Assembly (NCBI GenBank): GCA_030154225.1
Contig: JASKKI010000023.1
Span: forward strand, 1 to 33,410
Direction: 5' to 3'
Source: Clostridia bacterium
GTDB lineage: Bacteria > Bacillota > Peptococcia > Peptococcales > BICA1-8
Length of the DNA: 33,410 bases
This document shows, piece after piece, positions 17,255 to 23,791 of this stretch. The translations under genes were made by a program, and so were the position numbers. How positions within the stretch are numbered: position 1 is the stretch's first letter; every line of letters starts with the position of its first letter. The notes below the pieces were generated by a model. The model did no database searches, was not told the origin of the DNA, and saw only the letters and a list, made by a program, of their open reading frames with translations.

Positions 17255-17301
17255 AGTCAATGTCTGCTTTATCCACCATAATCTTATGAGGGGACGTGTT
17301 T

Positions 17302-18558
17302 ATGCTAAAAATTGTTTATCCTATTTGCTGTGGAATTGATGTCCACAAAAAGTTTGTTGTCGCAACGGTTGGTACTACTAACAAATCGGGTGTTACAGAG
17401 TACCAAACGAAGCAGTTTTCAACCTTTACTGAAAATCTACATCAACTTTTAGATTGGTTAAAATCTAAAAACTGTATTAACGTTTGTATGGAGTCTACAG
17501 GCAAGTACTGGCACCCCGTTTTTAATATCTTAGAAGAATACTGTGATGTTGTAGTCGCTAATCCAAAGTATGTTAAGGGTATTCGTGGCAAGAAAACCGA
17601 CAAAAAAGATTCTGTTTGGCTTTGCGATCTACATAAGCACGGTTTAGTTCCCAGCAGCTTTATACCACCCTTATTAACCCGTCAAATTCGTGATTTAATG
17701 CGGTATAGGTTTAAACTCATCAACTTTAAATCAAGCGAGAAAAACCGTATTCAAAACTCTCTTACTGTCTCAAACATCATGATTTCCAGTGTTGTTTCTG
17801 ATACTTTTGGTGTAAGCTCCATGAAAATTATTAATCATATCCTTGAAAATCCTGATGTTAAGGATTTCGATGTTTCACCAATGCTGCATAAAAGTATGCA
17901 AGATAAAGCAGAAACAATTACAAAATCAATTAATGGAAATTTGACTAAGCCACAAGCCGATAAAATGCGTGTTTGCCTTGACCATTTTGACAACATTGAG
18001 AAACACATAGCTGATATTGAAAAAGTTGTTTTAGCTTTAGCTCAGCCATATTTACCTCAAATAGAACTAATTTTATCAATGCCTAGTATTAATGACATTT
18101 TTACTGCAATTGCCATAATCGGTGAAATCGGTATTGATATGTCAGTTTTTCATTCCTCCAAACATTTATGCTCATGGGCTGGACTTACTCCACAAAATAA
18201 CGAAAGTGCTGGCAAGAAGAAATCTGTCCGCGTTTCACGAGCTGGCGTGTATATCAAGCCCTTATTAGTTCAATGTGCAAATGCTGCAATTAAAAGTAAG
18301 AAGTTTACCTATTTTAAGGTTCGTTATGATCAGATTAAGAAACGCCGAGGTCACAAAAAAGCCATTATTGCTATTGCCCATATGCTACTGAATTGTATTT
18401 ACCACATGCTTGATAGGAATGAGACATTTAACTATGATTTGTACAAAATTGACTCCAAACCAAAACAAACTTATGCTCCTCAGATTACTGAGGAAATGGC
18501 TGTACGTTACCTGCAAACGTTAGGTTACCAAATACCCGATATGCGTAATACCGTTTGA
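17302..18558 (+). CDS. IS110 family transposase (DEDD)
   Basis: 'CCGIDVHKKFVVATV', 'CMESTGKYWHPVFNILEE', 'VKGIRGKKTDKKDSVWLCDL', 'CSWAGLTPQNNESAGKKKSVRVSRAG'. ATG at 17302 fits the GAGGGG RBS better than the track GTG at 17296. Confidence 0.95.
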   Translation: MLKIVYPICCGIDVHKKFVVATVGTTNKSGVTEYQTKQFSTFTENLHQLLDWLKSKNCINVCMESTGKYWHPVFNILEEYCDVVVANPKYVKGIRGKKTDKKDSVWLCDLHKHGLVPSSFIPPLLTRQIRDLMRYRFKLINFKSSEKNRIQNSLTVSNIMISSVVSDTFGVSSMKIINHILENPDVKDFDVSPMLHKSMQDKAETITKSINGNLTKPQADKMRVCLDHFDNIEKHIADIEKVVLALAQPYLPQIELILSMPSINDIFTAIAIIGEIGIDMSVFHSSKHLCSWAGLTPQNNESAGKKKSVRVSRAGVYIKPLLVQCANAAIKSKKFTYFKVRYDQIKKRRGHKKAIIAIAHMLLNCIYHMLDRNETFNYDLYKIDSKPKQTYAPQITEEMAVRYLQTLGYQIPDMRNTV

Positions 18559-18888: not shown

Positions 18889-19887
18889 ATGGCTAAATTT
18901 AGGATTTTAAGTTTTGATGGCGGTGGTATTAGGGGAGCATTGACGGCAACATTATTAAAAAGATTAATAAAGGAGTATCCTAAATTAATAGAAATAACAG
19001 ATCTGTTTGCAGGTACTTCTACTGGTTCCTTTATAGCTTTAGGCCTGGCATCAGGTTTAAGTATAGAAGAAATTGCTAATTTATATACAGTGGAAAATGC
19101 TAAATATATTTTTTTCTCCAGACATCTCGGGTTATTTAGACCTAAATACAGTCATAGAAATTTAAAAGAAGTGCTATTAAGGGTATTCCCAAAGACACTT
19201 AGATTAATGGATTTAAATAAATTTGTAGTAATACCGTCATTTAGGGTTAAAGGTTCTAATACTGCAAGTTGGAGCCCAATATTTTTCAATAACTTTCCTG
19301 ATTCCAATACTAAACATGCTACTGTTATCGATGTAGCCCTTAGTAGTAGTGCAGCACCTATTTATTTTCCATCCTATAACCATCATATTGATGGTGGTCT
19401 GATAGCAAACAATCCAAGTATAGCAGCCATATCTATAGCAGCTGACCCATATTATGCTAACCAGATTCGTGATGAAATTTGTCTATTATCAATTGGTACC
19501 GGTTTTAATCCTCATAAAATTAAAGGGGATACTGCCAAGTGGGGACTGATACAATGGCTGTTTAATAAAAATCCACCAGTTCCTTTAGAAACAATAATGT
19601 TTGATGGAGCTGTAGAAGCTGATTCATATTTTAGTTATCAATTTTTAAAAGATAGATTTCACCGTTTAAATCCCGAGCTTAATAAATCCATATCTCTAGA
19701 TGATTATCAACAAATACCTTACCTTATTTCTTTAGCTAATAATTATAATATTTGTGAAACAATTGCTTGGATCAAAAATTACTGGTTTACTGATAGTTTA
19801 ATCGCACAATCTAAAAATGAAAAGCAAGATTTTGACCTTTTAAAAGGGAAATATTGGCATAATTTAATCAATAAATTTTACAAATAA
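18889..19887 (+). CDS. Patatin-like phospholipase
   Basis: 'LSFDGGGIRGALTATLL' oxyanion motif, 'FAGTSTGSFIALGLA' GxSxG nucleophile, 'HIDGGLIANNP' catalytic Asp. Confidence 0.94.
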   Translation: MAKFRILSFDGGGIRGALTATLLKRLIKEYPKLIEITDLFAGTSTGSFIALGLASGLSIEEIANLYTVENAKYIFFSRHLGLFRPKYSHRNLKEVLLRVFPKTLRLMDLNKFVVIPSFRVKGSNTASWSPIFFNNFPDSNTKHATVIDVALSSSAAPIYFPSYNHHIDGGLIANNPSIAAISIAADPYYANQIRDEICLLSIGTGFNPHKIKGDTAKWGLIQWLFNKNPPVPLETIMFDGAVEADSYFSYQFLKDRFHRLNPELNKSISLDDYQQIPYLISLANNYNICETIAWIKNYWFTDSLIAQSKNEKQDFDLLKGKYWHNLINKFYK

Positions 19888-19981: not shown

Positions 19982-20017
19982 AAAAAGCTCTACCATTTAA
20001 AAATGGTAGAGCTTTTT
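19982..20017. terminator. Bidirectional terminator between patatin and nrdG
   Basis: AAAAAGCTCTACCATTT-AAAAATGGTAGAGCTTTTT, convergent genes on either side. Confidence 0.9.
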
Positions 20018-20019
20018 AC

Positions 20020-20529
20020 TTAACTGTTGACTACATTTTTTTCCAAGAAAAATTCTCTAATTTCTCCTGACTCCAAGGATTTGGAAACATCAATAATTCT
20101 CTGATTGCGTGAGCCCCTAAAAACCAGAGAAATATCCTTTTCTTTTATTATAAATGGACCATCTACTAAAACATCAATTAATTCCATGACCGGTAAATCT
20201 TTTACTTCTTCAAAAGTATATCCGGTATATACCCAGATATTTACCCCTGGCTTCCGCTTACGAATAAAAGAAATAACATTGAGGAGTTTTTCCCACTGCA
20301 TTAGAGGGTCCCCTCCACTAAAGGTTAGGCCTGCGTGTTTGGGAGTTAACTTCTTTAAGAGCATTTTAGCCAATTCTCTTTCGGTAATTTCTTGGCCACC
20401 CTCTCGGGGAAGCAAAGAGGGGTTATGGCAGCCCTCACATCTTCTAGGACACCCTTGTAAAAAAGTAACTACTCTAATACCTGGTCCATCTACTATGGAA
20501 TCAGTAATTACATCACCATATCTAATCAT
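20020..20529 (-). CDS. nrdG: Anaerobic ribonucleotide reductase activating protein
   Basis: 'DGPGIRVVTFLQGCPRRCEGCHNPSLLP' CX3CX2C radical-SAM motif, 'GLTFSGGDPLMQ'. Confidence 0.95.
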   Translation of the reverse strand: MIRYGDVITDSIVDGPGIRVVTFLQGCPRRCEGCHNPSLLPREGGQEITERELAKMLLKKLTPKHAGLTFSGGDPLMQWEKLLNVISFIRKRKPGVNIWVYTGYTFEEVKDLPVMELIDVLVDGPFIIKEKDISLVFRGSRNQRIIDVSKSLESGEIREFFLEKNVVNS

Positions 20530-20584: not shown

Positions 20585-22726
20585 CTAATTACTAAATTCC
20601 ATGTGTTTAGTACGGTTCTTTTCTTCGGCTTTTTTAGCATCATTAAACATATCCAGGGTAGAAAGATAACCTGTAATACGTCTTACTCTACTGATTTTAC
20701 CACTGGTACCACAGGCTGGACAAAGATCCGTATCTATTACACCATTAAACCCACATTCTTTGCAAATATCTACCGGAAAATTTACAGCAGCATAACCCAT
20801 ATCGGCTTCATACATAGCCTGTATAATACTCTCAAAAGCTTCTAAATTATTAGTAGGTGCAGATGGTAATTCTACATAGGAAATATGACCAGCATTACAA
20901 AGCTTATGATAAGGTCCTTCTATATTTATTTTTTTAATAGCATCAATTTTATAATCCACCGGTACATGAAATGAATTAGTATACCATTCTTTATCAGTTA
21001 TACCTTTTATTTCGCCGAATAATTCCCTATCCTTTGTGACAAATTTTCCACTTAAACCTTCTGCCGGTGTGGCCAGTAAGGAGAAATTTAAATTATATTT
21101 CTGGGATGCTTCATCACATTTACGTCTTAAATGACTAACAATTGATAAACCTAAAGCTTGTGCTTCGGCGCTTTCTCCATGGTGTTTACCCGTCAATGCC
21201 ATCAAAGTTTCGGCAAGACCAATAAAACCAATACTTAATGTACCATGTCTAATCGCCTTTTCTATAGTATCGTTAGGTTCTAAATCTTCACTGTCCAGAT
21301 ACAGCTTTTGCCCCATTAAGAAAGGAAAATCTTTTACTTTTAACCTCTTTTGAAAATCATAACGGGTTAACAGTTGTTTAACAGTTAAATCAACCATTTT
21401 ATCCAAGCTACTCCAAAAATCCGATAGGTTTCCCTTAGCATTTATCCCTAGGCGAGGTAAATTGATAGTCGTAAAGGATAGGTTACCCCTACCTTCTGTC
21501 ACTTCGGGGCCATGAACATTTCCGATAACCCTGGTACGACAGCCCATGTAAGCTACTTCATCATCAAATATGGAGTTAAAACTGGAATCCTGGAAAGAAA
21601 AATTAGGGAATAATCGCTTACAAGCAACCTGCATACTCAGTTTAAATAAATCATAATTAGGGTCTTCCGGGTCATAATTAATACCATCTTTTATTTTAAA
21701 ACAAATATTAGGGAAAATTGGGGCTTCGCCCTTACCTAGGCCTTTCTCGTAAGCTTTTAAAAGCATTTTGGTAATCATCCTTCCACCCCGGGTCGTATCA
21801 GTACCCAGGTTAATAGAGGAAAAAGGCACTTGGGCACCTGCCCTGCTGTGCATGGTATTTAAGTTATAAACAAAACCTTCCATAGCCTGATAAACTTCAT
21901 CTTCAACCCGTTCTTGAACTAATTGGGCAAATTTCTCCTGGTCAACTTTCACTCCTAATTTATCCAAAGTATCTTTTAATAACTTTTCCTGGCGTTGAAA
22001 TTCTTTTTCTACATAAATACCCAGATCACGGTCAAAAAAAGCAAATGATTGTCCACCATGTTGATCATTTTGGTTACTTTGTAGGATTATTGCTGCTAAT
22101 GCAGCCGCAGTTTTTATGCTTTTAGGAGGTCTTATGTACCCGTGACCATTATTAAAACCTTCTTTTAATAATCTATGTAATGGAATTTGTAAACAAGTTA
22201 AAGTTTTGCCGTACCAGGCCAAATCATGAATATAAAAATCACCGTTAATATGAGCTTCGGCCTGCTCCAGAGGTATAACCCTTTTTAAATAATACTCTTT
22301 TGAAGCAATTTCCGATATTTGTAAAACTTTAGCAGAAGGGGAATTACCCACATTGGCATTTTCCCTATTGGTCTCCCTTAAAACATCGGCAACAGCATCC
22401 ATCATTTCTGAACGGGTTTCTCTAATCCTGGTCCGCTTATCACGGTATAATATGAATGCCTTGGCCGTTTTAGCATGACCCTTTTCTATTAACACTTTTT
22501 CAACAACATCCTGAACATCTTCTACAGTAAAAATATGGCCATTGAAACGGTTTTTTAAAAACCGCAAAACTTCAATTGTAAGTTCCATAGCAGTTTGCCT
22601 ATCTTCACCACCTACTGATTGGGCAGCCTTAAATATTGCATCTGTTATTTTATTTTCATTAAAAGCCACCTCACGGCCATCCCTCTTTCGTATAGTACTA
22701 AACAATTTACTCCCTCCTCTTACCAT
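20585..22726 (-). CDS. nrdD: Anaerobic ribonucleoside-triphosphate reductase, ATP-cone containing
   Basis: ATP-cone 'STIRKRDGREVAFNENKITDAIFKAA'; C-terminal Zn 'CKECGFNGVIDTDLCPACG' and glycyl-radical 'RVRRITGYLS'. Confidence 0.96.
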   Translation of the reverse strand: MVRGGSKLFSTIRKRDGREVAFNENKITDAIFKAAQSVGGEDRQTAMELTIEVLRFLKNRFNGHIFTVEDVQDVVEKVLIEKGHAKTAKAFILYRDKRTRIRETRSEMMDAVADVLRETNRENANVGNSPSAKVLQISEIASKEYYLKRVIPLEQAEAHINGDFYIHDLAWYGKTLTCLQIPLHRLLKEGFNNGHGYIRPPKSIKTAAALAAIILQSNQNDQHGGQSFAFFDRDLGIYVEKEFQRQEKLLKDTLDKLGVKVDQEKFAQLVQERVEDEVYQAMEGFVYNLNTMHSRAGAQVPFSSINLGTDTTRGGRMITKMLLKAYEKGLGKGEAPIFPNICFKIKDGINYDPEDPNYDLFKLSMQVACKRLFPNFSFQDSSFNSIFDDEVAYMGCRTRVIGNVHGPEVTEGRGNLSFTTINLPRLGINAKGNLSDFWSSLDKMVDLTVKQLLTRYDFQKRLKVKDFPFLMGQKLYLDSEDLEPNDTIEKAIRHGTLSIGFIGLAETLMALTGKHHGESAEAQALGLSIVSHLRRKCDEASQKYNLNFSLLATPAEGLSGKFVTKDRELFGEIKGITDKEWYTNSFHVPVDYKIDAIKKINIEGPYHKLCNAGHISYVELPSAPTNNLEAFESIIQAMYEADMGYAAVNFPVDICKECGFNGVIDTDLCPACGTSGKISRVRRITGYLSTLDMFNDAKKAEEKNRTKHMEFSN

Positions 22727-23183
22727 TTCGCAGTAGTCCTTCTATTTCTTTCACAAAAGTATTTATGTCTTTAAATTCCCGGTAAACTGAAGCAAATCTT
22801 ACATAGGCAACTTCATCTAAACCTTTGAGCTTGTCCATAACCAATTCACCAATTAAAGAGGAGCTTATTTCTCTCTCCATTCGATTTTTTAGCTCCCGTT
22901 CAATTTCTTCACTCACCAATTCTAACTTTTGTAAGGCTACAGGTCTTTTTTCACAGGCTTTAATCAGACCATTTAATATTTTTGTTGAATCATACACCTC
23001 TCTCTTACCATCTTTTTTTACAACTATCAGAGGAACATCTTCAATTTTTTCATAGGTAGTAAATCTTTTGGTACACTCTGCACATTCTCTACGCCGCCTA
23101 ATAGAGTTACCATCATCGGTAGAACGGGTATCTAATACTTTGGTATCATAAAAACCACAAAAAGGACAGCGCATTACTTTCAC
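22707..23183 (-). CDS. nrdR: Transcriptional repressor NrdR
   Basis: 'MRCPFCGFYDTKVLDTRSTDDGNSIRRRRECAECTKRFTTYEKIE' zinc ribbon plus ATP-cone. Confidence 0.97.
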   Translation of the reverse strand: MKVMRCPFCGFYDTKVLDTRSTDDGNSIRRRRECAECTKRFTTYEKIEDVPLIVVKKDGKREVYDSTKILNGLIKACEKRPVALQKLELVSEEIERELKNRMEREISSSLIGELVMDKLKGLDEVAYVRFASVYREFKDINTFVKEIEGLLRNGKRRE

Positions 23184-23311
23184 TCCTTGTGTAAGTTCAA
23201 AAAAAGTTAATAATTAATAGGATAAAAATATTTAAAACTATGAACTATTTATCTTTTGTTTTGTTGCAGGGTTTTTATTTTATGGAGTCGAATAGTAGTA
23301 AATATTATAGA

Positions 23312-23353
23312 AAAATAATAACTGTCACTAGATCTAGTGACAGTTATTATTTT
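23312..23353. repeat. Perfect 42-bp palindrome
   Basis: AAAATAATAACTGTCACTAGATCTAGTGACAGTTATTATTTT is its own reverse complement with no spacer (checked base by base). Confidence 0.97.
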
Positions 23354-23377
23354 AATCTACTATATTTAGTATGTCAA
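23325..23377 (-). promoter_or_regulatory. nrdR-nrdD-nrdG promoter with two NrdR-box-like sites
   Basis: Minus strand TTGACA (23372-23377), 17-bp spacer, TAAAAT (23349-23354). Boxes 23357-23372 and 23325-23340, centre-to-centre 32 bp. Confidence 0.75.
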
Positions 23378-23503: not shown

Positions 23504-23791
23504 TTACCTGACCCATTCTTCATTTCGTTCTTTACGGGGTATTTCTGTAAATTGTTGGGCTTCTACTAAAATAACATCAATACCTATTCTGATTATTTTT
23601 TCCCAGGGGACAATATAATCTTCTTTTTTTCCAAATATACTTAAGAATCTTCCTGAATACCCAGGAAGTATTAATGCTGCAATTCTCCCAGTCTCTACAT
23701 CTATATCGATATCTTTTATAGGACCCAATCTTCGACCATCAACAACATTGATTATTTCTCTTTCTTGTAAATCAGATATTTTAGCCAGCAT
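23504..23791 (-). CDS. YlmC/YmxH family PRC-barrel sporulation-associated protein
   Basis: 'MLAKISDLQEREIINVVDGRRLGPIKDIDIDVETGRIAALILPG' PRC-barrel; ATG at 23791 follows GGGAGGGG (track 23818). Confidence 0.92.
   Translation of the reverse strand: MLAKISDLQEREIINVVDGRRLGPIKDIDIDVETGRIAALILPGYSGRFLSIFGKKEDYIVPWEKIIRIGIDVILVEAQQFTEIPRKERNEEWVR

Follow-up and report, generated by a model that had tools for sequence, protein, structure and literature searches.

An NrdR box at the nrdR-nrdD-nrdG promoter of a Clostridia bacterium may double as the terminator of the upstream gene ymxH

The repressor NrdR acts on ribonucleotide reductase (RNR) operons through tandem boxes and uses ATP and dATP for this purpose. 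Tandem NrdR-box operators of RNR genes have been described for E. coli nrdHIEF and nrdDG, L. monocytogenes nrdDG and S. coelicolor nrdRJ (PMC12176259, PMC12051234, PMC9110341), and boxes that overlap the RNA polymerase site are on record for other bacteria (PMC12051234, PMC12176259). Spacers of 14-18 bp are bound tightly by L. monocytogenes NrdR and spacers of 15-18 bp by E. coli NrdR, and a class of long-spacer operators (24-27 bp) occurs in Streptococcus (PMC12051234). The words "terminator" and "roadblock" are absent from the main text of PMC12176259, as are "terminator" and "hairpin" from that of PMC12051234. A partial literature search for operator/terminator overlap and for NrdR in connection with terminators returned nothing relevant, although such cases may exist elsewhere. 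The locus analysed here is like the known tandem operators in that two palindromic boxes of 16 bp, spaced 16 bp apart, lie over an RNR promoter, the operon in this case including nrdR. Unlike in those operators, a much longer inverted repeat with a U-tract has box 2 at its core.

The DNA under study (the window, 33,410 nucleotides in full) lies on contig C28 of a 2.68-Mb genome, G000. Its minus strand carries, in this order, sigG, spoIIR, ymxH, the promoter region, nrdR, nrdD and nrdG, and family models match all of these genes. The upstream gene ymxH/ylmC occupies 23504..23791 (TIGR02888, 89 bits). It is followed by nrdR (22707..23174; TIGR00244, 215 bits), with an ATG start behind AAGGAG, by nrdD for the class III ribonucleotide reductase (20585..22726; NF005497, 1077 bits; TIGR02487, 638 bits) and by nrdG for the activating enzyme of NrdD (20020..20529; TIGR02491, 146 bits). 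A long perfect minus-strand hairpin with A-rich and U-rich ends (19982..20017) adjoins the 3' end of nrdG and is likely the operon's own terminator. Just past this end of the operon the plus strand carries genes for a patatin-like phospholipase (18889-19887) and an IS110-family transposase (17296-18558).

An earlier note on this DNA had placed a promoter, TTGACA-N17-TAAAAT, on the minus strand at 23377-23349, together with two NrdR boxes 32 bp apart centre to centre and separated by 16 bp. All of these elements are present. Box 1, ATACTAAATATAGTAG (23357..23372, 15.4 bits), fills the spacer between the -35 hexamer TTGACA (23372..23377) and the -10 hexamer TAAAAT (23349..23354, from sequence and promoter scan), and relatives have TTGAC at this position with respect to box 1. 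Transcription is predicted to start at 23342, 7 nt past the -10 and within 2 nt either way, a placement by position convention only, and box 2, TCACTAGATCTAGTGA, covers 23325..23340 (15.8 bits). In the 4.8-kb region that was scanned, the nrdR promoter is the top sigma-70-type match (11/12), promoter-like sites overall not being above chance there. Both boxes match the NrdR consensus and keep the conserved C4 and G13. When scored with a position matrix built from the boxes of other genomes, the window left out, the pair reached 31 bits, far above the 7.6 bits of the next-best pair in the window. No other such pair turned up in about 320 kb of G000, window included. The operator precedes an RNR operon, and its genome encodes NrdR. 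The 16-bp spacer falls inside the published ranges (PMC12051234), and both boxes are conserved in relatives, the tandem layout being kept in four of five same-family genomes. A strict pattern of TTGAC, box 1 and box 2 occurs in 40 of 398 genomes of the phylum, with 42 matches against about 8 for a reversed control pattern. An arrangement that places box 1 within the promoter spacer and box 2 over the start site is widespread across the phylum, in many genera. Score, gene context, spacing and conservation strongly support the reading as a tandem NrdR operator, and as such it is of the ordinary type.

Several further observations concern NrdR sites and the nrdR leader. The other RNR gene of G000, nrdJ, is preceded by an operator (contig C32, L196:546-602) with two strong boxes of 16.4 and 15.3 bits, 41 bp apart centre to centre. 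Its 25-bp spacer is like that of the Streptococcus class, which the nrdRDG operator does not resemble, so that G000 combines a short spacer at nrdRDG with a long one at nrdJ. Two NrdR-box-like pairs, each 31 bp apart, lie away from RNR genes (L195:1498-1544 on contig C103 and L032:198-244 on contig C65). One of them precedes an ORF of at least 459 aa without Pfam match, the other stands just behind a helicase-like ORF resembling Cas3, and both may be due to chance. In the nrdR promoter of the same-family relative L001, box 1 is weak at best and box 2 cannot be recognised, although its NrdR is 83% identical to that of the window. A motif, CTATATTCG, followed by AAAACCC(T), is found on the minus strand of the window at 23267-23300 and in the nrdR leaders of L006, L008, L012 and L014. 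All five genomes of the family that have the boxes thus share it, its distance from box 2 being variable, and the sequences of L008 and L014 allow it to pair with box 2 RNA. The motif had no Rfam match. We rejected it as a third NrdR box, given that it lacks the G at position 13 and that its distance from box 2 varies from about 33 to 48 bp (hand count).

The gapless, perfect 42-bp palindrome that the earlier note had drawn around box 2 and over the -10 is likewise there. AAAATAATAACTGTCACTAGATCTAGTGACAGTTATTATTTT (23312..23353, minus strand) equals its own reverse complement and overlaps the -10 with its left end. Its length far exceeds chance expectation, no other gapless palindrome in the window being longer than 14 bp, and an imperfect inverted repeat extends wider still (23296-23371, 87% self-match). 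We considered a dispersed repeat or mobile element and rejected it, as the 88-bp region is single in the genome and matches only itself and its own reverse complement. The palindrome is oriented correctly for a hairpin downstream of ymxH, with 131 bp from ymxH to box 1, and read-through RNA is predicted to fold at -26.5 kcal/mol (60-nt segment). Its U-rich end, TATTATTTTT (23311..23320, minus strand), is largely paired with the A-rich left end and was found by a search that allows tract and stem to overlap. A standard terminator scan did not list the palindrome, likely because such a scan expects a loop of 3-8 and a U-rich stretch that starts outside the stem. This absence counts against a terminator, as does a stem that is A/T-rich and holds part of the U-tract. 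Like intrinsic terminators with A-rich and U-rich ends, the element is a hairpin 3' of a gene with a U-rich tract, here lying largely within the stem, in the style of the hairpin after nrdG. Unlike them, it has no designed loop and extends over the -10, the start site and the repressor site of the operon that follows; the missing spacer is explained by the palindromic nature of the operator. Long mirror-image hairpins, A-rich at the left end and U-rich at the right, are a repeated feature of G000. About 320 kb of this genome contain 19 perfect hairpins with arms of at least 13 and up to 25 bp, among them the one after nrdG, and the palindrome fits this style. The other hairpins are candidate terminators.

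We propose a fusion of NrdR box 2 with the intrinsic terminator that would end the transcript of the upstream gene ymxH, and assign this reading a probability of about 0.65. It is built on sequence, gene context, conservation, paired covariation and the lack of a separate terminator wherever the hairpin occurs, and from it we infer the start site, NrdR binding, termination and escape. The comparison ran from same-family relatives outward, above the level of the genus, and all terminator calls in it are computed. Four same-family relatives keep the boxes, lack the palindrome and have a separate terminator after ymxH, although a small inverted repeat still lies over box 2 in one of them, L006. 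Across 60 tandem-box promoters, pairing of the 13 bases flanking box 2 was mostly 2-9 of 13. The window pairs at all 13, and so does L017 (G008), which belongs to a different family of the same order, with 11 Watson-Crick and 2 G-U pairs. L038 (Candidatus Formimonas warabiya), from another class, pairs at 11 of 13. All three hairpins continue into a U-tract, and the stretch from ymxH to box 1 holds no separate terminator in any of these genomes. The Formimonas class supplied three further box-2 hairpins, again without separate terminator. Of these, L199 has 13/13 pairs, with arms that take in TATAAT, L198 has only 8/13 pairs and a shorter yet perfect 26-bp palindrome, and L200 is the third. 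A box-2-centred hairpin with U-tract occurs in six genomes from at least two independently placed groups, with differing letters, and the double use as operator and terminator probably recurs in at least two other bacterial lineages. When the flanks of 40 promoters were shuffled, 60 rounds gave a mean of 0.3 and a maximum of 2 box-2 terminators, compared with the six observed.

Within the flanks the letters change and the pairing stays. Over flank positions 9-18 of the six genomes, 55 of 60 cells are paired in register and only 21-27 of 60 when one arm is slid by 1-3 bases. Cells in which both bases differ between two genomes and both genomes still pair number 54, as opposed to 5-9 in the slid registers; these cells were counted over related genomes and are not independent events. 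The whole stem contains 7 G-U but 2 A-C pairs, a small-number excess that leans towards RNA in the nrdR direction. Since flank letters vary while pairing is kept, a folded strand is favoured over a sequence read by protein. This bears on the idea that the extension acts as DNA, as a larger site for NrdR or another dimeric protein or as a cruciform. Perfect dyad symmetry centred on an operator is what such a site would display, but a protein site would be expected to conserve letters, G-U pairs occur in the stem, and NrdR boxes without extension are the rule in most relatives. A role at the DNA level therefore seems very improbable to us. In the earlier note, the palindrome was given a part in repression; such a part is supported for the NrdR operator at its core, and the extension is dispensable for operators of this kind in general, because most relatives keep box 2 without it.

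An effect on the operon's own mRNA, either as a 5'-terminal stability hairpin or as an attenuator in the nrdR leader, would be compatible with the predicted transcript of the window, which opens with a hairpin of 8 bp (segment at -11.1 kcal/mol). The earlier note had expected the whole operator to be carried as a 5'-terminal hairpin. However, the predicted start near 23342 lies inside the left arm, so that most of this arm is left untranscribed and the operon's own RNA would keep the 8-bp hairpin, not the whole palindrome. The fold of the operon's own transcript is weak in L038, L199 and L200, and the values at the 5' end range from -5.7 to -13.9 kcal/mol in the six genomes rather than staying constant; nothing in the comparison speaks specifically for mRNA stability. 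As for attenuation, no Rfam leader or riboswitch family matched at gathering score in the window or its relatives, and no alternative antiterminator pairing emerged. We therefore regard a role on the operon's own mRNA as improbable.

The fused terminator is favoured by its association with the upstream gene. We compared 40 ymxH-nrdR gaps that contain tandem boxes, and in 22 of them ymxH has a separate terminator. A box-2 terminator is found in none of these 22 and in 6 of the 18 gaps without a separate one (Fisher p = 0.005). The sign of this exclusivity was the same at every threshold tried, with p from 0.005 to 0.07, the latter under the strictest terminator definition. Neither kind of terminator is seen in 12 of the 40 gaps, hence ending ymxH at the nrdR gap is not always needed. 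On the NrdR protein tree the hairpin requires three changes, at least two of them on well-supported branches, and these 2-3 independent contrasts are too few for a relatedness-aware test. In this tree, the branches of the window and L017 lie outside the four same-family genomes with the separate terminator. In one simple history, the fused form would be old in the order and would have given way to a separate terminator among the sister genera. Among the three roles that the earlier note had offered for the palindrome, the comparison thus points to the ending of ymxH transcription.

The palindrome could also be a functionless by-product at a plain tandem NrdR operator, left by template-switch correction of a quasi-palindrome that the box had seeded. 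Such correction would leave a perfect palindrome without spacer, as found in the window. Moreover, the next conserved leader motif lies at nearly the same distance from box 2 as in L008 and L014, so that the right arm looks replaced in place, and the left arm resembles L006. Nevertheless, five more genomes have a like anatomy in other letters, with paired changes and always a U-tract, and the hairpin appears only where ymxH is without separate terminator. A mutation of this kind may have perfected the palindrome, but its upkeep by chance in several lineages is unlikely, and we consider the by-product explanation improbable as a whole.

If box 2 is indeed fused with the ymxH terminator, the locus would work as follows. 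An NrdR tetramer with ATP and dATP would hold box 1 and box 2, about three helical turns apart, and in this state exclude RNA polymerase from the promoter, a mode of action established for NrdR in other systems. Box 2 is extended into the long inverted repeat that ends in the U-tract. Polymerase reading through from ymxH would copy both arms, and consequently the read-through RNA could form a hairpin of about 19 bp, then U's, and terminate. Transcripts from the operon's own promoter would begin within the left arm, retain only the short hairpin at some distance from the U-rich end, and so escape. With both arms in the read-through RNA and the 8-bp hairpin in the own transcript, polymerases from ymxH would be stopped and those from the own start would pass. 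NrdR would control initiation, and a single stretch of DNA would be -10 element, start site, repressor site and ymxH terminator.

Should this hold, the bases shared by repressor site and terminator would have to satisfy both protein binding and RNA folding, and which transcripts stop would depend on promoter geometry. A long palindrome at an operator may then be something other than an additional protein site, and fixed loop rules would make terminator predictors miss fused cases of this kind. We give about even odds to the wider proposal that several Clostridia-like lineages have fused an NrdR box with the -10, the start site and the terminator of an upstream sporulation-cluster gene. In these lineages the hairpin would screen the RNR operon from read-through and let its own transcripts pass, and NrdR occupancy could alter ymxH read-through.
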